Positions 3,313 through 48,634 of a stretch of 48,634 nt of DNA are shown piece after piece. Origin of the DNA: a virus. The position numbers were made by a program, and so were the translations under genes. Numbering within the stretch: the stretch's first letter is position 1; the number at the start of each line of letters is the position of its first letter. Location of the stretch: positions 1 through 48,634 of IMG/VR virus record IMGVR_UViG_3300023220_000213. The stretch is one strand, 5' to 3'. The notes under the pieces are model-generated. The model made no database searches, had not been told where the DNA came from, and was given only the letters and a program-made list of their open reading frames with translations.

Positions 3313-3578
3313 ATAACTAGCCCCTTATCGATTAACTTCATTAAAGTCTCGAACATTGCGCGTTGCTGATCTTCATAACTAACTTTGCTAGAATCTAGTA
3401 ATAAATGACATTCGTAACAAGCGTATACAGCAAGTATATCAGGCGATTTAAAGCCCGTCCCGCGATAGTTTGAGTTTAAATGCGCTAACACCACCTTGCC
3501 CTCTTCATCGTGCGAGCATTGAGGGCTTACTCTGAGCGAACAAGACTCTCCGTTGGCTGATTTTCTTATTTTACTCAT
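3303..3578 (-). CDS. DUF1364-type zinc/nuclease-like nin-region protein, 91 aa
   Basis: Shows the DUF1364 layout: KSANGESCSLR with C13 and C21, then VVLAHLNS with H33, then YACYECHLLLD with C54, C57 and H58. These Cys/His pairs would bind a metal and resemble an HNH-type beta-beta-alpha site. The family is found in lambdoid nin regions next to RusA and NinB, and a role in recombination or DNA ends is inferred. Starts at an ATG overlapping the stop of the Rha gene by 4 nt. Confidence 0.75.
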   Translation of the reverse strand: MSKIRKSANGESCSLRVSPQCSHDEEGKVVLAHLNSNYRGTGFKSPDILAVYACYECHLLLDSSKVSYEDQQRAMFETLMKLIDKGLVICV

Positions 3579-4270
3579 TGATCAACTCCAATTAGCAATG
3601 TTTTGCCAAGTGCTAGTAAGTCCTGCTTAACAAGAACAAAAACAGTTTTATAGTGCTCTCCATTTGACATGTGTTTTCTGATCGATTGCTTGGCTAGGTT
3701 TTCAGCCACCATCAACTGAGACAATTCCATCATGTCGAGCGTATCTTTTAGCTTGGGTTTTTTATACTGAATTAACCCAAGCGCCTTATATGTTGCGTTG
3801 GTGTAATGTTTGTAGTAGAACTTGGCTGACTTACTGCCTTGATTGGTTGCGTACTCAACAAATTCTTTGATCACATCTGTTTGTTGCAGCCTCATCTGTT
3901 TGGATTGCGATCTTACTTTTAGCCATTGGTTATCGTGTGAATTCTCGTCGAGCTTTAACAGTGCGCTTTCCATTTCGTAAAATGCGGCGTTAAACTTCAT
4001 TTGCCACTCAAGCGCCTTTTTCCCCTTAAACCTCATGCACAATAAAGAAAAGAACTCTCTGCTCATTAAGTATGCTTCATAATCCCTTCCGCGATAATTT
4101 CTGTCTTCCTTAACAATTAAGGGTAATCCCAAATTACCCTTAATTTCAGAAATGTCGCACATCAAATTATCTATCACCTTTACAACGTGAGCATGTTTAA
4201 ACCCGAACTTCTTGGCAACTATAGAGCTGTCACAAAAAATATCACTGCCTTTAACTTCAACTAAGCCCAT
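3575..4270 (-). CDS. rha: Rha-family phage regulatory protein, 231 aa
   Basis: N-terminal Rha domain (about 1-105): a winged-helix-like SSIVAKKFGFKHAHVVKVID segment, then SREFFSLLCMRFKGKKALEWQMKFNAAFYEME, the family signature. C-terminal ~125 residues start at ENSHDNQWLKVRSQSK. Rha proteins are phage regulators known to interfere with infection of IHF-deficient hosts. The C-terminal half is nearly identical to that of the second Rha gene (26476-27162), whereas the N-terminal halves differ strongly. It has a good Shine-Dalgarno (AAGGA) and an upstream -10 box. Confidence 0.85.
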   Translation of the reverse strand: MGLVEVKGSDIFCDSSIVAKKFGFKHAHVVKVIDNLMCDISEIKGNLGLPLIVKEDRNYRGRDYEAYLMSREFFSLLCMRFKGKKALEWQMKFNAAFYEMESALLKLDENSHDNQWLKVRSQSKQMRLQQTDVIKEFVEYATNQGSKSAKFYYKHYTNATYKALGLIQYKKPKLKDTLDMMELSQLMVAENLAKQSIRKHMSNGEHYKTVFVLVKQDLLALGKTLLIGVDQ

Positions 4271-10393: not shown

Positions 10394-10696
10394 ATGACAG
10401 ACCAAAAGATTGAAAAAGAAATCATTGAAAAAGGCTTAACAGCTCCACGGGTAACACCAGAGCGACTAGAGCAAGTTATCGCATCCGAGCAGTATCATGT
10501 TTTTGCTGGCACAACGTTTACCGCGTGCTTACTGACACTTGAAAATGGATATACTGTTATTGGTGAATCTGCGTGCGCTAGTCCTGAAAACTTTAACGCT
10601 GAACTTGGGCGCAAGATTGCGAGATCAAACGCCGTCAATAAGATTTGGCAGCTTGAGGGTTATCTTCTAAAACAGAGCCTACATGATAAAGCGTAA
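10394..10696 (+). CDS. Gp49-family phage protein, 100 aa
   Basis: Matches the phage Gp49/66 family: an N-terminal EKEIIEKGLTAPRVTPERLEQVIASE stretch, then YHVFAGTTFTACLLTLENGYTVIGESAC and ENFNAELGRKIARSNAVNKIWQLEGYLL. These proteins are found in many phages and have no established biochemical role. It follows its own promoter and overlaps the next gene by 14 nt. Confidence 0.75.
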   Translation: MTDQKIEKEIIEKGLTAPRVTPERLEQVIASEQYHVFAGTTFTACLLTLENGYTVIGESACASPENFNAELGRKIARSNAVNKIWQLEGYLLKQSLHDKA

Positions 10697-11271: not shown

Positions 11272-11664
11272 TTATTTACTTGTCGGTGATAGTGGCTTGA
11301 TAATCTTTATGTATTTAGTGTCAACCATCGATAAGTCATCACCCGCTAAGTTTTGCCAGTAATTAACTGGACCACCAAATCTATTGTAATTATTGAAATG
11401 GCACATAATTATTTTTCCACAAGGGAAGTGAACCCAATACAAATTATCTTCGGTAGTTGGTGGTTGATCTTCTGTGATAATCCACTTTTCTTTCGAGTCG
11501 CGATCAAACATGCCTGCATAAAACAATTCCGACCACTCCGACCACTTTTTAATTCTTTCGTCATAATCATGACTCATTAAGCAATCGTCTTTGCCAGGTG
11601 CCATAGTTCCGGTTTCTTTGTAAAACTTAGCGGCCATGTATTCGAATCTTTCGTTGCTGTTCAT
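11272..11664 (-). CDS. DUF551-like phage protein, 130 aa
   Basis: Start ATG at 11664 overlaps the homing-endonuclease stop (ATGA) and has GGAG upstream. The C-terminal half has the W-x6-P-P-x-x-x-x-x-Y-W pattern (EKWIITEDQPPTTEDNLYW) followed by a small beta domain, resembling DUF551. N-terminal part is helical and charged. Function unknown. Confidence 0.55.
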   Translation of the reverse strand: MNSNERFEYMAAKFYKETGTMAPGKDDCLMSHDYDERIKKWSEWSELFYAGMFDRDSKEKWIITEDQPPTTEDNLYWVHFPCGKIIMCHFNNYNRFGGPVNYWQNLAGDDLSMVDTKYIKIIKPLSPTSK

Positions 11665-12311
11665 TTTGTCATTCTCCAATGTGCGTTAGTTTCTTTTAGT
11701 AATTCAGCGTGTAGGCGCAGTCCTTTAGCTATCGATGAGTCTGTTTGCTCGTTTGCTACTTTAAGTATTAGCTTTGTTTTTTCTTTGATATATACGGCGC
11801 TTGCCTCCTCTGGTGTTGAGAAAATACCTAGGTTATTTAGCTTTCCGTTTGCGTTTAGCTGCGCGGTGAATTTTCCGGTGCCCTTATGAAAGCAGACGCC
11901 TTGCGGGAGCCTACCTCTTGCCGCTGCGCGATCTAGCAAAAGGTTGTTAAGCTTACTAGTTATAAATCTACAGCGACTTGGTGAGTATATTTTATTGCCC
12001 GGCTCGATAATATCCTTATCTAAGTGCATCCCATTCCAACTTTGCGTCTTCATCCAGACTTTAAAGTTGCTGAACGTTAACCACTCATCACACACTGCAC
12101 ACTCCATATAAGTTGGGTACCTTGCTTTGTATTTTTGGCTGTAGCATCGATTTATCATGCTGCTCCATTTTCGATAGAAAGGGCAAATAGTTCTTTTACC
12201 ATTAATTATTTGGCTGGTTGTGTACTTTGCATCATTTACCCCAACGCCATAAACTAACTTTCTTTTTGATATAGAACCTTTGCTTGCTGGCACTTCAGTG
12301 AAGTTATTCAT
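11661..12311 (-). CDS. HNH/AP2-type homing endonuclease, 216 aa (copy 1)
   Basis: Member of a set of paralogues here (also 20769, 38510; more distantly 45649). Shared landmarks: VPASKGSISKRKLVYGVGVN at the N-terminus; W-x-x-M-x-x-RCY, PTYMECAVCDEWLTF and LDKDI-x5-GNKIYSPSRCRFI-x5-LN, the variant HNH-type site; and an AP2-like C-terminal DNA-binding part (GVCFHKGTGKFTAQLNANGK, LGIFSTPEEASAVYIK). The ATG at 12311 is chosen over one 21 nt upstream because AAGGA precedes it and the paralogues start there. Such genes are mobile and copy themselves into alleles lacking them. Confidence 0.8.
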   Translation of the reverse strand: MNNFTEVPASKGSISKRKLVYGVGVNDAKYTTSQIINGKRTICPFYRKWSSMINRCYSQKYKARYPTYMECAVCDEWLTFSNFKVWMKTQSWNGMHLDKDIIEPGNKIYSPSRCRFITSKLNNLLLDRAAARGRLPQGVCFHKGTGKFTAQLNANGKLNNLGIFSTPEEASAVYIKEKTKLILKVANEQTDSSIAKGLRLHAELLKETNAHWRMTK

Positions 12312-12332
12312 GATTTTCCTTACCTGTAACAT

Positions 12333-18712: not shown

Positions 18713-18830
18713 AGAATAGACGGCACGGGCATCGCTACCCAACATCTTCAATAAGGGGGTGGGACCATCTAGGTATTTGGCAACACCAGGCGCATTAATA
18801 TATCTGTGAAGGTGATTTAATGTGATAACT
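18713..18830. other. Intergenic stretch without a gene
   Basis: No ORF with a ribosome site is seen in this 118-nt stretch. It has GC-rich patches (GGGCATCGCTACCC, a GGGGGTGGG run) capable of weak pairing, and a TGTGATAACTAACC sequence at 18821 resembling the phage promoter motif but abutting the terminator. It is probably a 3' untranslated region. Confidence 0.3.
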
Positions 18831-18855
18831 AACCCACTTAATCGGTGGGTTTTTT
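18831..18855 (+). terminator. Intrinsic terminator of the lysis operon
   Basis: AACCCAC (18831-18837) pairs with GTGGGTT (18845-18851), loop TTAATCG, with six Ts from 18850 and then ATTGCC. The TTTTTTATTGCC end is shared with the two structured RNAs at 20486 and 36561. Confidence 0.85.
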
Positions 18856-18904
18856 ATTGCCCAATGAAATAATGTCAACATAAATGTATACACGCGCGGT
18901 TACA

Positions 18905-20300: not shown

Positions 20301-20377
20301 TTGATGGCAAGTCTGGCGCCGAGAAAAAGCTAACAGCTATCGGTCAGGTGTTTATGGATAATTACGGAAAGGTTTGA
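20297..20377 (+). pseudogene. Displaced C-terminus of the 20118 gene
   Basis: Reads LIDGKSGAEKKLTAIGQVFM and on to TGA at 20375-20377. It has no ATG of its own in this frame until late, and fits as the tail of the upstream ORF after a one-base indel. A TTG start at 20297 overlapping the upstream stop is the alternative. The stop overlaps the extended -10 of the RNA that follows. Confidence 0.4.
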
Positions 20378-20383
20378 TATAAT
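20375..20383 (+). promoter_or_regulatory. Promoter of structured RNA 1
   Basis: Extended -10 TGATATAAT with the perfect hexamer TATAAT at 20378-20383. No clear -35. The bases downstream (TGNTTTGTTGATTGG) are shared with the second RNA locus, placing the start near 20390. Confidence 0.6.
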
Positions 20384-20389
20384 TGTTTT

Positions 20390-20491
20390 GTTGATTGGCG
20401 TCGGAACCAAAAGACACTAGATAGGGTTTAGTTAGTAACTGTGGTGATTCAACGTCACCATTCCGACCAGTTACTAAACTAAGCCTTTTTT
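20390..20491 (+). ncRNA. Structured pseudoknot RNA 1, about 102 nt
   Basis: Helix A: GTCGGAA (20400-20406) with TTCCGAC (20461-20467). Helix B: GGTTTAG plus TTAGTAACT (20425-20440) with AGTTACTAA, one bulged A, and CTAAGCC (20469-20485). Helix C: TGGTGA/TCACCA hairpin (20442-20447, 20455-20460). The order A, B, C, A', B' makes a pseudoknot. Six Ts (20486-20491) follow helix B directly, so B doubles as the terminator stem. A second locus (36468-36566) has the same architecture with changed but still complementary stems. No ORF. I do not recognise a known RNA family. Confidence 0.75.
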
Positions 20492-20768
20492 ATTGCCTCA
20501 GTTTTACGTCAAGATTTATCCTAGAGCACATTCTTTATCAACTAACATGATATTCAAAGCTGCGAATCAAAACAGCACTTTGCAAACCTTTACATAAGAC
20601 AACGTTTAAGGCCGCGTTTCAGCGCAATTAAGGGTCGAGTTTGGGCAGCTCAATGGATTAAAATGCTAGCTGATATCTGGATTATGTATTTGTATTAGAA
20701 GTATCGTTAAGGCTCCATCCCTTTAATAACGGCTTTCTTTGGCCTATGGAACAAATTAAGGTTGCTAT
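20492..20768 (+). other. Non-coding leader between RNA 1 and homing endonuclease
   Basis: 277 nt without a credible ORF on either strand. The first ~25 nt resemble those after RNA 2 (ATTGCCTCA, then CAAGATT-Y-AT). ATTAAGGG (20627-20634) can pair with CCCTTTAAT (20719-20727, one bulge), enclosing a domain that includes a CAGC/GCTG stem. No strong promoter seen. It may be a structured 5' leader of the endonuclease gene or the remains of displaced DNA. Confidence 0.4.
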
Positions 20769-21392
20769 ATGTTTATTGAAATTCCAGCTAGTAAAAGATC
20801 TATATCGCAAAGAAAATTGGTTTACGGAATCGGCATTAATGATGCTGATTATGTGACGCAACCTTCAGTTAATGGGAGGCAAGTAACCTGCGGCATATAT
20901 AAAGCCTGGAGAGGGATGCTTGAGCGTTGTTATTGTGAAAAGACAAGACATAATAACCCTTCATATCGTGATTGCACTGTGTTTCCTGACTGGCTTATTT
21001 TTAGTAATTTCAAGAAATGGATGGCTAATCAAGACTGGAAAGGAAACGAGTTAGATAAGGATATAATTAAGGTTGGAAACAAGGTGTATCACCCTGACCT
21101 TTGTGCTTTTGTTAGCCAGGATGTAAATAAGTTATTATCACACGGCGGCTTTGTGGATAACGGAATGCCGCCAGGAGTTTACTACCATAAAAAAGGAAAG
21201 GTATTTATAGCCCAGATTGGTAAACACTCAAAAGTTGTTTATATCGGTAGTTATTCTACGCCTCTAGAGGCTGGGGTAGCATATGCAAAAGCAAAAGGCG
21301 AACATATATTGCATGTTGCATCACAACAAGATGAAGAAAGAATAAAAAATGGATTAGCAATGCATGCCGAATACTGGCTATCAAAGCGTTAG
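20769..21392 (+). CDS. HNH/AP2-type homing endonuclease, 207 aa (copy 3)
   Basis: Same family as 11661 and 38510: IPASKRSISQRKLVYGIGIN, W-x-x-M-x-x-RCY, CTVFPDWLIFSNFKKWM, LDKDI-x5-GNKVYHPDLCAFV, and an AP2-like GVYYHKKGKVFIAQIGKHSK with TPLEAGVAYAK. It departs from its sisters in the Cys motif (CTVFPDW instead of C-x-VCDEW), losing one Cys, and in YHP for YSP, so activity may be reduced. AAGG Shine-Dalgarno 8 nt before the ATG. Confidence 0.8.
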   Translation: MFIEIPASKRSISQRKLVYGIGINDADYVTQPSVNGRQVTCGIYKAWRGMLERCYCEKTRHNNPSYRDCTVFPDWLIFSNFKKWMANQDWKGNELDKDIIKVGNKVYHPDLCAFVSQDVNKLLSHGGFVDNGMPPGVYYHKKGKVFIAQIGKHSKVVYIGSYSTPLEAGVAYAKAKGEHILHVASQQDEERIKNGLAMHAEYWLSKR

Positions 21393-21439
21393 AGATAGGT
21401 CTTATTGATACTAATGTTTAAAAATAAAGAGGAATAATT

Positions 21440-26475: not shown

Positions 26476-27162
26476 ATGAAAGATTTAGTTAAATTTGTTG
26501 GCGGTGAGATAATTGCATCATCAAAGGATGTTGCGGAGAAATTCGGGAAAGTTCACAGAAATGTTTTAATCGACATTAAGCGATTGGAATGCAGCGATGA
26601 ATTTAGAGAGCACAATTTCCTGCTGTCCTCATACACTTCAAGTCAGAACAAAACTCTTCCATGCTATGAAATAACAAGAGACGGATTCGCATTCTTATGT
26701 ATGGGTTTTACTGGCAAGAAAGCTGCTCAATGGAAAGAAAAATATATTTCAGCGTTTAATGCAATGGAAAAGGCGCTATTAAGCGCTAACGAAAACTCAC
26801 ATGACAACCAATGGCTGAAAGTAAGATCACAATCAAAAGCGATGAGACTGCAACAAACAGATGTGATCAAAGAATTTGTAGAATATGCAACCAACCAAGG
26901 CAGTAAATCAGCTAAGTTCTATTACAAACACTACACCAATGCAACATACAAGGCTCTGGGGCTTATACAGCACAAGAGACCTAAGCTTAAAGATACGTTA
27001 GACATGATGGAGCTATCGCAGTTAATGGTTGCTGAAAATGTTGCCAAGCAATCCATCAGAAAACACATGAATAATGGCGAGCATTACAAATCAGTATTTT
27101 TGTTAGTTAAGCAAGATTTAATCGCATTTGGCGATTCATTAATGCTGGAGAATAAACAATGA
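26476..27162 (+). CDS. rha: Second Rha-family regulatory protein, 228 aa
   Basis: Rha N-terminal domain (ASSKDVAEKFGKVHRNVLIDI, then EITRDGFAFLCMGFTGKKAAQWKEKYISAFNAME). From about residue 105 (ENSHDNQWLKVRSQSK) the sequence is nearly the same as the rha at 3575. The N-terminal halves share only the family pattern, so the two genes are a mosaic pair. Controlled by the strong promoter and inverted repeats just upstream; it may autoregulate. Sits between terminase and head genes as a moron-like insert. Confidence 0.85.
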   Translation: MKDLVKFVGGEIIASSKDVAEKFGKVHRNVLIDIKRLECSDEFREHNFLLSSYTSSQNKTLPCYEITRDGFAFLCMGFTGKKAAQWKEKYISAFNAMEKALLSANENSHDNQWLKVRSQSKAMRLQQTDVIKEFVEYATNQGSKSAKFYYKHYTNATYKALGLIQHKRPKLKDTLDMMELSQLMVAENVAKQSIRKHMNNGEHYKSVFLLVKQDLIAFGDSLMLENKQ

Positions 27163-36395: not shown

Positions 36396-36432
36396 CAGTA
36401 AAAATAAGTATTAAATAAATAAAAACACCGCT

Positions 36433-36461
36433 TTGATTAATAATCTTGGCGGTGGTATAAT
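36433..36461 (+). promoter_or_regulatory. Promoter of structured RNA 2
   Basis: -35 TTGATT (36433-36438), 17-nt spacer, -10 TATAAT (36456-36461). The best-formed promoter of the two RNA loci; the following TTGCTTTGTTGATTGG is shared with RNA 1. Confidence 0.75.
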
Positions 36462-36467
36462 TGCTTT

Positions 36468-36566
36468 GTTGATTGGATGCGGGTCCATAAGACAAGAGAG
36501 AGGTTTGTTAGTATTTCTGAAGCATTAATTTGCTTATCCCGCCAGATTTACTACCAAACCTTTTTT
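36468..36566 (+). ncRNA. Structured pseudoknot RNA 2, about 99 nt
   Basis: Same plan as 20390-20491. Helix A: GCGGG (36479-36483) with CCCGC (36538-36542). Helix B: GGTTTG and TAGTA (36502-36513, one mismatch) with TACTA and CAAACC (36549-36560). Helix C: AAGCA (36520-36524) with TGCTT (36531-36535), loop TTAATT. Six Ts at 36561-36566, then ATTGCCTCA as in RNA 1. Loop 1 carries the shared CCAWAAGACA. Stem sequences differ from RNA 1 while pairing is kept, the mark of a selected RNA structure. Confidence 0.75.
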
Positions 36567-36962
36567 ATTGCCTCAAGATTCATTCCCTTCAAACGTTGCA
36601 ACAAGCCCACTAATCGCAGGAAGCGGTAGCCAATGTCGAGAGACAGCACGTAATAGACCCGGTGGCCGAATGCTTAACTTAGCCGTAGCATGGTAGGATA
36701 AACAGTTCAAAAAATGACATTATCGTGATCAACAGGAAAGTGGTAAGGCATTAGCCGAGCAGAAGACCACAAAAATAAACTCTGGAATCCTTTCACGTAG
36801 CAGACCCGGTAAGTCTGAATAAACTACAATTGATAAGATTTGTTGCAATCGACCAGCTAATTATAATGTTAATAGTTCCTTCTTGTTTGGTTATGGTTTG
36901 GTAGTAGTCAAATGATCGGGTCTAATGATTTCTATATTTAAATTAAAGAGGAAACATTCAAA
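36567..36962 (+). other. Non-coding region downstream of RNA 2
   Basis: About 395 nt with no credible ORF on either strand. It holds a 17-nt imperfect direct repeat (36647-36663 and 36794-36810, two mismatches, core AGACCCGGT), a hairpin CAGAC/GTCTG (around 36801-36817), and a possible promoter (TTGTTG, 16 nt, TATAAT at 36862-36867) for the zinc-protein genes. GGTTTGGTAGTA at 36895-36906 is a perfect 12-nt complement of the helix B' strand of RNA 2. Confidence 0.5.
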
Positions 36963-38509: not shown

Positions 38510-39148
38510 CTAATTTTGCCGCTGTGACTTACCCTTAATCAATAGATCTACATGAAGTCCCAGGCCGTTAGCTATGCGAGTATCGGTTTGTTCGCTTAGG
38601 TATTTTATTATTATCGCTGTTTTAGCCTTGATGTATGCCTCGCTTGCTTCTTCAGGTCCTTTATAGTATCCGAGACTTGCTTGTTTGCCATTGAATCTAA
38701 CTCTTGCTTGGAATTTTTTGGTGGCCTTATGCCACGAAACCCCTTGAGGATATTTACCACGCGAAGATCCGCTGTCCGTCAATAGTGCGTTCAGCGACTT
38801 TGGAATGAAGCAGCAAGTGTCAGGAGAATATAATTTATTGTCGGGAAATATAACATCTTTATCTAATTCCATCCCTTCCCAATTCTGTTTAACCATCCAA
38901 GATTTAAAATTAGAAAATAATAACCACTCATCGCAAACTGAGCATTCAATATACGTTGGATTCCTGTCGTGGAATTCATCGGAATAACACCTTTTTATCA
39001 TATTGCTCCATCTAATATAGTAAGGACAGACCAGTGTTTTGTTTGATGATGCAATGTGTGCTTTATAGCCAGCATCATTAATGCCAACCCCGTAAATAGG
39101 ATTTCTCTTTGAAATTGACTTTTTGCTTGCAGGAATTTCTTTAAACAT
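38510..39148 (-). CDS. HNH/AP2-type homing endonuclease, 212 aa (copy 4)
   Basis: Start at 39148 (MFKEIPASKKSISKRN), aligned with its sisters and preceded by GTGAGGTT; an upstream in-frame ATG would add 30 unrelated residues. Full family signature: RCYSDEFHDRNPTYIECSVC then DEWLLFSNFKSWM, LDKDVIFPDNKLYSPDTC, and the AP2-like GVSWHKATKKFQARVRFNGK with LGYYKGPEEASEAYIK. Inserted against the direction of transcription between connector genes, with its own promoter and structured leader. Confidence 0.82.
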   Translation of the reverse strand: MFKEIPASKKSISKRNPIYGVGINDAGYKAHIASSNKTLVCPYYIRWSNMIKRCYSDEFHDRNPTYIECSVCDEWLLFSNFKSWMVKQNWEGMELDKDVIFPDNKLYSPDTCCFIPKSLNALLTDSGSSRGKYPQGVSWHKATKKFQARVRFNGKQASLGYYKGPEEASEAYIKAKTAIIIKYLSEQTDTRIANGLGLHVDLLIKGKSQRQN

Positions 39149-39299
39149 AATAACCTCACTAAGGTTCACTACAGAAGGGATGTTGAGCGCGTCTGGTAGT
39201 GAATCAGAACGAGGAGCAACCCTCTCGCGCAATGCCATTATAACAAAAAACGTTTTATTATGGTAAAATTAATTTATTACTAAATGCAAGGGTAAAATA
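39149..39299. promoter_or_regulatory. Promoters and structured leader between endonuclease and 39300 gene
   Basis: Leftward: TGTTATAAT (-10 at 39237-39242 on minus) for the endonuclease. Its leader holds a hairpin of up to 13 bp (GGTTCACTACAGA 39163-39175 with TCTGGTAGTGAATC 39192-39205, one bulge). Rightward: ATGGTAAAAT (-10 TAAAAT at 39264-39269) restores expression of the connector gene at 39300, followed by a weak AGGG ribosome site. Confidence 0.55.
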
Positions 39300-46317: not shown

Positions 46318-48634
46318 CGCATTAAAAGTACAAGCCGGCCAAAAGATCGTAACAATTGCAGATTTGGAATTGGACAGATGCAGGCACACCACGCCGCAAT
46401 CCGTGCTTGATGGCACTATCACGATAAGCGATTCATTGGCCCAAGGCGCAACAACAACGCTTGCCATTACAGGCGGCACAGCTTTGTCATTCGTTAACTC
46501 AACGCCTTTTATATTATGGGATAGCGAAGTAATAAAAGTCACGGTCGATTCTGATATTCAGCTTACGGTAATTAGCCGTGGTGAATTTGGCACAATTGAT
46601 GTGGCTCACTCCCCAAGCGCTGCTATATTACAGCATTTAGGCGAGGCAGACGGTTCATGCTATGGCACGCCTTTTACATGCAATAGCCCTGATTCATTTG
46701 AAGCTAACACTAAATTATTATTTAGATTCCCATCGACACAGATTAGTTTTGATCAAGTTTATTTTAGTGGCTATAAATCATGGACACACAAAGCCGGTAC
46801 TATAGATCCAGGTCAATCAATGGGTAAGCGTGCCGGAGCTGGATTAACAATGCTTGATAGTGTTGATGATGACAATTATGTTCCATACATCGACAGGCGA
46901 ACAAGTAGAGGGACGTTATTCACTAAATTGATAGCGCGACACCCTAATTTTGAGGGCCGCCCAATTAAGATTCATGAGGGTTTTGATCCGCTTAATATCG
47001 ACTTCGATAACTTCCTCACTCGCGAATACATTATCGATAAGGCTCAATTGAAAAATGGCGTATTTACCATAAGCGCTTTAGATCCATTAATACTGTCAGA
47101 TGATAAAAAATCTAAAGCTCCGGTAGCATCGTTAGGCACCAACACGATAGCAATAACTGGCGCTAGCACAACAATAACTTACGTTGGGGCGCCAGCCTTT
47201 GATTATGGCGCGGCAACCTCAAAGGCGTTCGTTCGTATGGATTCGGAGGTTATCGAATGCACCGTGTTAAGCGACTTTGTTTTAACTATTGATAATCGAG
47301 CCATTGGCGGCACAGAGCAAGCTGATCATGATATTAATGCAACCATTCAAGAGTGCCTTGTATTTGACGATGTAAATGTTGTTGAAATAATCGAAACGTT
47401 ATTAACTGATTTCACCGGAATACCATCAACGTTTTTAGATGATTACACGGCAGTTAAGGCTGCAACATCAACTATCACGCTAACACGAAATATTAACAAG
47501 CCAACACCTGTTAAAAAGCTAATTGACGAGTTAATCAGAAATGGTGACTTGACGGTTTTTTATGATGAAATAACCAGCAAAATAAAAATCAAACAAGTTG
47601 CAGACGCTAATGTAGAGCCTATCAACATTAATGAAGAAGATCATATAGGCCAAGATTCAATCGATTTCACCCGAGATACTAAAAATCAGTTTACCAGGCA
47701 TTCTGTAGCATGGGGACCAAACGATATAACCGAAGATGCCGGGGAGGAAAATTTCTCTATAATATTTCAATCAATAAATCTTGGTAATGAACAGCCTGAA
47801 TTTATCGGTGAGATTAACGAAAAGAAAATATTTTTTAATCCATGGCTAACTACATCAAATGATGACGTAATAATAGGTACTTCAATTGCTCAACGTGTTA
47901 TTGATCGAGTCGAAGACGTCCCAATCATTGCTGAGTTCGACTTAGACATTGAAAGCGTATTTTCTACGCAGGGCGGCAACCTTGAGTTAGGATCTATTAT
48001 AAACTTATCGAGCGGAAGATCTGTTAATGTTGACGGCACAAATAGAGCAGCTAACCATCAAGTCTTAAGTATTAAAGACAAAGGCGGCATGCGCTACAGA
48101 ATAAAAACCAAGTTGTTTCAAGACCCATTGGAAGGTCTCAACGTCGACTTTACCATTTCAGATGATAAAGAAGATTACGATATGTCGACCGAGTTTGCAC
48201 CAGCGGCCGGTAATTTTGTAATTTTAATTGATACCGGCGTGACAATAGGTTCGACCTCAACGTCCAACCCGGCATTCACAACAGGAACGCAAGCGGCTGG
48301 TGTTACGTTTGATTTCGTAATAAAAGGTTCAATTCTCGGGGCTGGTGGCGATGGTGGCGACAGCAGCGGGACTGACGTAATAAATGTTGATACTACTGAC
48401 TTTGTAGTGTTTGAAACAGGTCTAGTTGGTCTGATTGGTGGTAATTCGATGGAGCTGACAGTTCCTTGCACTATAAATGTTGGGTCCGGCGCTATATGGG
48501 CTGGCGGGGGTGGCGCGGCAGGAACAAGATCAAGAGCAGAATACGAACACATTGTTGATAGCTCTGGTGAATTCAATGTCATAACTAGAATAGTATCAAA
48601 AATAGAAGGTAACGGCGGTTCGGGCGGTGCTGGT
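46307..48634 (+). CDS. Tail hub / host-recognition protein, N-terminal 776 residues
   Basis: Continues at 1-420 for a total of 877 aa. N-terminal module (ISDSLAQGATTTLAITGGTA, DSEVIKVTVDSDIQLTVISR) and a later YVGAPAFDYGAATSKAFVRM both read as small viral beta domains on the tail-tip theme of a surface marked SEVI-x-x-x-V-x-x-x-x-L-x-I. The middle (about 360-620) resembles baseplate-hub proteins (PVKKLIDELIRNGDLTVFYD, then QFTRHSVAWGPNDITED). From about residue 675 it becomes glycine-rich (GAGGDGGDSSG, GGGGAAGTR). ATG at 46307 with a GGTGAA ribosome site inside the endonuclease gene. Confidence 0.75.
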   Translation, partial: MTFNALKVQAGQKIVTIADLELDRCRHTTPQSVLDGTITISDSLAQGATTTLAITGGTALSFVNSTPFILWDSEVIKVTVDSDIQLTVISRGEFGTIDVAHSPSAAILQHLGEADGSCYGTPFTCNSPDSFEANTKLLFRFPSTQISFDQVYFSGYKSWTHKAGTIDPGQSMGKRAGAGLTMLDSVDDDNYVPYIDRRTSRGTLFTKLIARHPNFEGRPIKIHEGFDPLNIDFDNFLTREYIIDKAQLKNGVFTISALDPLILSDDKKSKAPVASLGTNTIAITGASTTITYVGAPAFDYGAATSKAFVRMDSEVIECTVLSDFVLTIDNRAIGGTEQADHDINATIQECLVFDDVNVVEIIETLLTDFTGIPSTFLDDYTAVKAATSTITLTRNINKPTPVKKLIDELIRNGDLTVFYDEITSKIKIKQVADANVEPININEEDHIGQDSIDFTRDTKNQFTRHSVAWGPNDITEDAGEENFSIIFQSINLGNEQPEFIGEINEKKIFFNPWLTTSNDDVIIGTSIAQRVIDRVEDVPIIAEFDLDIESVFSTQGGNLELGSIINLSSGRSVNVDGTNRAANHQVLSIKDKGGMRYRIKTKLFQDPLEGLNVDFTISDDKEDYDMSTEFAPAAGNFVILIDTGVTIGSTSTSNPAFTTGTQAAGVTFDFVIKGSILGAGGDGGDSSGTDVINVDTTDFVVFETGLVGLIGGNSMELTVPCTINVGSGAIWAGGGGAAGTRSRAEYEHIVDSSGEFNVITRIVSKIEGNGGSGGAG
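48521..48634. repeat. Direct terminal repeat, right copy
   Basis: Exact copy of bases 1-114. It begins at the first base of a codon in the tail-hub reading frame, as does position 1, so the two gene halves fuse without a shift. Confidence 0.95.

Follow-up and report, generated by a model that had tools for sequence, protein, structure and literature searches.

In phage lambda, the constitutive promoter pR' gives rise to the short 6S RNA that is terminated at tR', with the late genes lying downstream and being reached by Q antitermination. The Hfq-dependent sRNAs of the RydC type are likewise short, with a pseudoknot plus a 3' terminator. Among the larger RNAs, GOLLD is encoded by phages and prophages and is bipartite, with tRNAs sometimes present in the linker, while ROOL is phage-borne, contains pseudoknots and is often located near tRNAs (PMC12286853). 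GOLLD assembles into a homo-oligomeric nanocage. In addition, each of two early promoters of phage HK022 is followed by a put RNA (PMC9378689).

We analysed a stretch of phage DNA of 48,634 nucleotides, called the window here, which probably represents a whole phage genome assembled as a circle, as deduced from the identical 114-base direct repeats at its two ends (1-114 and 48521-48634). An earlier note had described in it two related loci having the same promoter, loop, order of elements and 3' end, and the promoters, the helices and the T-tract are indeed present in both copies, as follows.

Copy 1, 20355-20383, + strand: promoter, with the −35 element TGGATA (20355-20360), a 17-nt spacer, the extended −10 element TGATATAAT and TATAAT at 20378-20383
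Copy 1, about 20390, + strand: transcription start (+1)
Copy 1, 20390-20491, + strand: 5' domain, consisting of the leader, hairpin P0, B-C-A'-B' and U6
Copy 1, 20395-20410, + strand: hairpin P0, UUGG (20395-20398) with CCAA (20407-20410) and A in the loop, read by hand
Copy 1, 20400-20406 with 20461-20467, + strand: helix A/A', GTCGGAA with TTCCGAC, a pseudoknot between loop and strand
Copy 1, 20424-20441 with 20468-20485, + strand: terminator-like stem B/B', with the C hairpin (20442-20460) inside
Copy 1, 20442-20447 with 20455-20460, + strand: helix C
Copy 1, 20486-20491, + strand: T6, directly after B'
Copy 2, 36433-36461, + strand: promoter, with the −35 element TTGATT (36433-36438), a 17-nt spacer, the extended −10 element TGGTATAAT and the −10 element at 36456-36461
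Copy 2, about 36468, + strand: transcription start (+1)
Copy 2, 36468-36566, + strand: 5' domain
Copy 2, 36479-36483 with 36538-36542, + strand: helix A/A', GCGGG with CCCGC
Copy 2, 36502-36519 with 36543-36560, + strand: stem B/B'
Copy 2, 36520-36524 with 36531-36535, + strand: helix C
Copy 2, 36561-36566, + strand: T6

In both loci the promoter is of the sigma-70 type with an extended −10 element, which is retained across nearly all the relatives described below, the start is at about GUUGAUUGG, and the series of helices (A, B, C, A', B') ends in CCTTTTTTA. Over 126 bases, the copies share 72% identity. Within the window, the loop CCAWAAGACA occurs at these two loci only (chance 0.25), and so does the exact TTTTTTATTGCCTCA, of which a form with two mismatches is present at 18850-18864. 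The latter closes an ordinary-looking terminator hairpin (18830-18864, with the tail TTTTTTATTGCCCAA), which shows that the RNA is not alone in having a tail of this kind. As the earlier note had also held, the 5' domains are non-coding, with no open reading frame of at least 60 amino acids over either of them in the list of open reading frames. The folding energies are −34.1 kcal/mol (z = −6.07) for copy 1 and −32.3 kcal/mol (z = −5.31) for copy 2, with none of 200 shuffled sequences being as good in either case. In the minimum-energy folds of both copies, obtained by nested folding, A' is an unpaired bulge, free for contact with A. Moreover, the leader UUGG can pair with CCAA, placing A in the apical loop, so that the A-A' interaction is a kissing-loop or pseudoknot contact. 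It is noted that just upstream of the copy 2 promoter (36420-36455) there is an inverted repeat ACCGC...GCGGT followed by a minus-strand T-run, which looks like a minus-strand terminator, and that similar repeats lie upstream of the promoters in several relatives.

Gapped-pattern scans of IMG/VR, of which the matches were mostly due to chance and were screened by eye or script for A/B pairing, gave about a dozen further distinct copies. In 12 aligned copies, all 7 pairs of A/A' have changed on both sides and 91.5% of the cells are paired. The pseudoknot, which the earlier note could deduce from two sequences, is therefore confirmed by covariation beyond these two. For helix B, one-sided and some two-sided changes support the pairing, and for helix C a few double changes do so. 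The structure as a whole scores above 500 of 500 shuffles on four of five measures and above 497 of 500 on the fifth, and it beats all of its slid versions. Furthermore, when the A/A' partners of each RNA were compared with permuted partners in 30 distinct copies, the observed sum was 504.5 and the maximum in 20,000 permutations 458, with the A/A' of one copy, L368 (TTTGGCGA/TCGCCAAA), being visible in the sequence but missed in this test. RNAalifold on the single close pairs L308/L311 and L313/L314 showed little or no covariation, and these pairs are left out of the evidence. It is thus clear that the folding of the RNA is under selection, as had been claimed for the A-B-C-A'-B' topology.

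The A/A' sequence itself takes many distinct forms across the family. A/A' differs even within one genome (GTCGGAA versus GCGGG in the window), so that, in the most tentative of the readings given below, the two copies would each fold or self-assemble without cross-pairing. Two copies per genome are also present in two large relatives, 3300037587_000281 and 3300038548_000125. By eye, the hairpin presenting A varies from UUGG/CCAA through UUGG/CCGA to GCGG/CCGC, the last form being that of P0 in phages Seahorse and vB_VaM_H2 (H2) by hand comparison; an extra crossing helix, such as AGATGGT/ACCATCT in HS2, can be seen by eye in HS2, Pq0, NF and 1.116.O.

This variability bears on the proposal, which we regard as improbable, that the locus encodes a discrete trans-acting sRNA of about 100 nt, with the leader GUUGAUUGG or the AAGACA segment acting as the seed and with the downstream region being the leader of a late gene only. 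The proposal would fit the promoter-terminator unit, which is complete in itself, and the observation that, within the window's own group, variation is lowest in the leader and in CCAWAAGACA. However, in Seahorse, H2, 1.116.O, HS2 and L362 both the leader and CCAWAAGACA are lost and the fold is kept, implying that it is the structure rather than a seed that is conserved, and the downstream region is structured as well.

The sequence past the T-tract is conserved and non-coding over 250-450 nt; for example, the downstream parts of relatives L315 and L320 are 73% identical over 246 nt. In many relatives this 3' part closes with a motif resembling TCTAATGANNACTATTNTTTAAATT, and the next ribosome-binding site (RBS) follows immediately. 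In the window, the features are as follows.

Copy 1, 20492-20732, + strand: non-coding 3' part, conserved up to an insertion point
Copy 1, 20769-21392, + strand: HNH endonuclease gene (phrog_953), inside the copy, with AACGG (20732) before it and the 3' motif (21398-21422) after it
Copy 1, 21398-21422, + strand: 3'-terminal motif GGTCTTATTGATACTAATGTTTAAA, adjoining the RBS of the following gene
Copy 2, 36567-36944, + strand: non-coding 3' part of about 380 nt, ending in TCTAATGATTTCTATATTTAAATT (36921-36944) beside the RBS-like AAAGAGGAA

The 3' part of copy 1 is related to those of L316 (72% identity over 198 nt), L317 (90.6% over 234 nt) and L321, with weak structural support, and that of copy 2 has no homologue by DNA similarity in a phage collection of 50,697 records. 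The earlier-noted stretches are the 5' front of a larger unrecorded non-coding RNA gene of about 350-560 bases in all. The idea of a discrete RNA of about 100 nt alone falls short in that a conserved, structured 3' part continues past the T-tract, where in relatives tRNAs or a tRNA-like cloverleaf follow at once; the coordinates given before cover the 5' part only.

The connection between the two parts is supported by a scan that used the 3' motif alone, without 5' information, and returned eight stretches. A 5' domain lies 300-560 nt upstream of the motif in L362, L364, L365 and L367, which are new, and in L257 and L066, which were known; L363 is cut by the contig end. The exception is L366, having a GIY-YIG-like gene (by eye) before the motif and no 5' RNA domain, which counts against a bipartite RNA. 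In the 11 sequences with a 3' domain of type I, 15 pairs are formed, with pairing in 96.3% of the cells, two-sided changes in 10 cells and 0 of 500 shuffles doing as well, where the structure was derived from the alignment used for its test and the statistics thus lean in its favour. At least two other 3' types (II and III) carry the same 5' domain as type I, and the 3' parts of the window are two further types, one per copy.

In sequence terms, the HNH gene interrupts the 3' end of copy 1, the corresponding sequence in L317 being continuous, AACGG|TCTTATTGATACTA. A second HNH gene of phrog_953 is present in the window at 38510-39238, and the open reading frame at 11661-12332 looks by eye like a third paralogue. 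In L319 (oriented copy), a GIY-YIG-like gene, again by eye, occupies +488 to +949 from the RNA start, directly before the 3' motif. Besides these, the window encodes two proteins (3575-4270 and 26476-27162) whose C-terminal halves are nearly the same (ENSHDNQWLKVRSQSK...), which looks like the duplication of a phage gene of regulator type.

With such insertions, the locus could be an intergenic element of a mobile or selfish kind, with the RNA fold helping the element to spread, an explanation that we consider very unlikely. The HNH gene in copy 1 as compared with the uninterrupted L317, the GIY-YIG-like genes in L319 and L366 and the mosaic nature of the 3' parts would be expected of it. Against it, most members have no endonuclease, the searched loci have no match to the Rfam models of group I and II introns, a small sample of bacterial genomes contained no copy, and conserved neutral sites are also places near which homing genes insert.

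Between the T-run and the 3' domain, some relatives have no linker, others have a tRNA-like cloverleaf, and others have one to three real tRNAs, which start 0-3 nt past the T-run. The tRNAs are Trp-Arg-Gly in Seahorse, Met-Arg in H2 and Trp-Arg in 1.116.O, with the first one lying 2, 3 and 0 nt after the T-run, respectively. In NF and 1.054.O there is a cloverleaf of 66-68 nt with a 7-bp closing stem, in which ARAGORN calls no tRNA. Neither a tRNA nor a cloverleaf linker was found in the window's two copies. Note also that in L316 a tRNA-Pro (TGG) gene (10418-10494) lies directly upstream of the RNA promoter.

This organisation can be compared with the systems described above. The two domains with tRNAs between them, as found in Seahorse, H2 and 1.116.O, resemble GOLLD, and ROOL is likewise large and phage-borne, has pseudoknots and frequently lies close to tRNAs. 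By contrast with GOLLD, where the 3' region is conserved universally and the 5' region less so, here the 5' domain is common and the 3' domains vary; moreover, the present RNA is shorter, at about 350-560 nt without tRNAs, and unrelated in sequence. The GOLLD model (RF02032) matched none of seven records at E ≤ 10, and the ROOL model (RF03087) gave no match at E ≤ 10 in the seven records, a weak result by itself since the control genomes were silent too; cmscan of several loci was also negative for ROOL. The earlier note, to which the family was unfamiliar, had suggested an Rfam search as a check, and Rfam 15 returned only tRNAs and chance-level matches, both for the window at gathering scores and for the two loci together with L362, L365, L367, L369 and L370 at lax E-values. 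The RNA is therefore a family unrecorded in Rfam and, by model search, outside GOLLD. A type III toxin-antitoxin RNA, a 6S mimic, a riboswitch and an anti-CRISPR RNA were considered and dropped, because tandem repeats, a linked toxin, a constant gene downstream and an Rfam match are all lacking, and for the anti-defence role that had been suggested no support was found. A regulatory role, suggested as well, is possible. RydC-type sRNAs share the pseudoknot plus 3' terminator, which is a lead only, and differ in that here the kissing A/A' lies inside the terminator stem and a 3' domain is added.

The RNA gene is carried by many phages of marine bacteria, where it sits amid late genes. Among annotated phages, relatives are found in the Pseudoalteromonas phages HS1, HS2, HS5, H105/1, BS5 and Pq0 and in the Vibrio phages Seahorse, vB_VnaS-L3, H2, NF, 1.054.O, 1.074.O, 1.116.O, 1.131.O, 1.276.O and other V. 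breoganii phages; the Vibrio hosts include V. natriegens, V. alginolyticus and V. breoganii. In the annotations, the locus is a gap or holds small hypothetical open reading frames only. In one relative, G010 (L102), whose portal protein is 85% identical, the RNA model matched nowhere in the contig of 40.6 kb, which is possibly a fragment. By DNA similarity, the 5' domains had no match in the 50,697 phage records. The exact pattern gave 83 stretches in 84,980 bacterial genomes, none with the fold; the 3'-domain pattern gave no credible copy in 397 genomes of one family, a group with no positive control, and neither did the model R1, which performs poorly for divergent members, when run on one order (395 genomes), again with no positive control. 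The loci are co-directional with the genes that follow, in differing gene contexts: before the terminase, between head and portal genes (HS5), before a methylase, between the major capsid protein and the head-tail adaptor (Pq0) and, in the window, ahead of the head-tail adaptor. The varied neighbours argue for an autonomous unit over a regulator of one gene.

The main rival to such a unit, which we regard as possible though rather unlikely, is a cis-acting gate of late transcription similar to lambda pR'/tR'. In this explanation, a constitutive promoter would give a short RNA halted at an intrinsic terminator, a Q-like phage factor or a put-like nascent RNA would permit read-through to the late genes, and the kissing loop would tune the termination. 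At the level of sequence, the arrangement is indeed that of a constitutive promoter and then a terminator before late genes, with a sigma-70 promoter and a near-perfect terminator at +100; the loci run in the same direction as the morphogenesis or replication genes behind them, the 3' part ends at the RBS of the next gene, and tRNAs 0-3 nt behind the T-run require read-through. The two put RNAs of HK022, putL and putR, behind early promoters (PMC9378689) also offer a parallel, as two related cis-encoded structured RNAs behind two promoters. However, put is about 70 nt long, has two stem-loops and binds the RNA polymerase (beta' zinc-binding domain), whereas the RNA here forms a pseudoknot whose 3' end is itself an intrinsic terminator. 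Furthermore, the loci also lie within runs of late genes (Pq0, the window, HS5) and before unrelated genes, and the lambda scheme needs neither a conserved RNA pseudoknot nor a structured 3' domain, nor does it have tRNAs in a linker.

The explanation that we prefer, with about an even chance of being right, is that both loci represent one kind of phage gene, autonomous and moron-like, which encodes a stable, bipartite, structured non-coding RNA. It is favoured by the A/A' covariation, by the recovery of 5' domains with the 3' motif, by the covariation in type I, by the differing gene contexts of the locus in Vibrio and Pseudoalteromonas phages, by the tRNAs and cloverleaves in the linker, by the absence of an Rfam family and by the layout shared with GOLLD (PMC12286853). 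With the structure, the covariation, the conserved layout and the tRNA positions being observed, we infer termination or processing at U6, stability of the transcript and a scaffold role. The pathway could be as follows. From the host-type sigma-70 promoter with its extended −10 element, the RNA would start at GUUGAUUGG, and its first 100-135 nt would form a compact 5' domain in which the hairpin loop A pairs with A' within the long terminator-like stem ending in U6. Some transcripts probably stop at U6, giving a stable RNA of about 100 nt. Read-through, or transcription from upstream late promoters, would add the linker and the structured 3' domain, which extends to the RBS of the late gene that follows. 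In the relatives bearing tRNAs, RNase P cleavage 0-3 nt past the U-tract would separate the domains and leave the 5' domain with the same 3' end as does termination at U6. As the organisation is that of GOLLD (phage late region, two domains, linker tRNAs), a scaffold-like or RNP-like stable RNA of the lytic cycle would, by analogy, be the likeliest role.

Some points weigh against the bipartite RNA. A near-perfect intrinsic terminator in the middle of the unit would remove most of the 3' domain. The presence of several unrelated 3' types (I, II, III, that of copy 1 and that of copy 2) implies that different elements may be grouped together in what is called the 3' part, and its abutment to the next RBS would also suit a cis-acting leader. 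The joint action of the two domains is put forward as a proposal from the sequences. We rank the bipartite moron-like RNA first, followed by the transcription gate, the lone trans-acting sRNA and the selfish element. We suggest only tentatively that a kissing-loop-locked, terminator-like 5' domain, which is freed either when transcription terminates or through a tRNA or tRNA-like element embedded in the RNA, and which acts jointly with exchangeable structured 3' domains, would constitute a distinct RNA class.

Finally, we note that the family looks like another large ornate phage RNA, of which few, such as GOLLD and ROOL, are known. Its carriers are culturable Vibrio and Pseudoalteromonas phages, and the RNA is small enough for probing and deletion. 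The family thus makes testable the recurrence of two folded domains with intervening tRNAs in unrelated phage RNAs.
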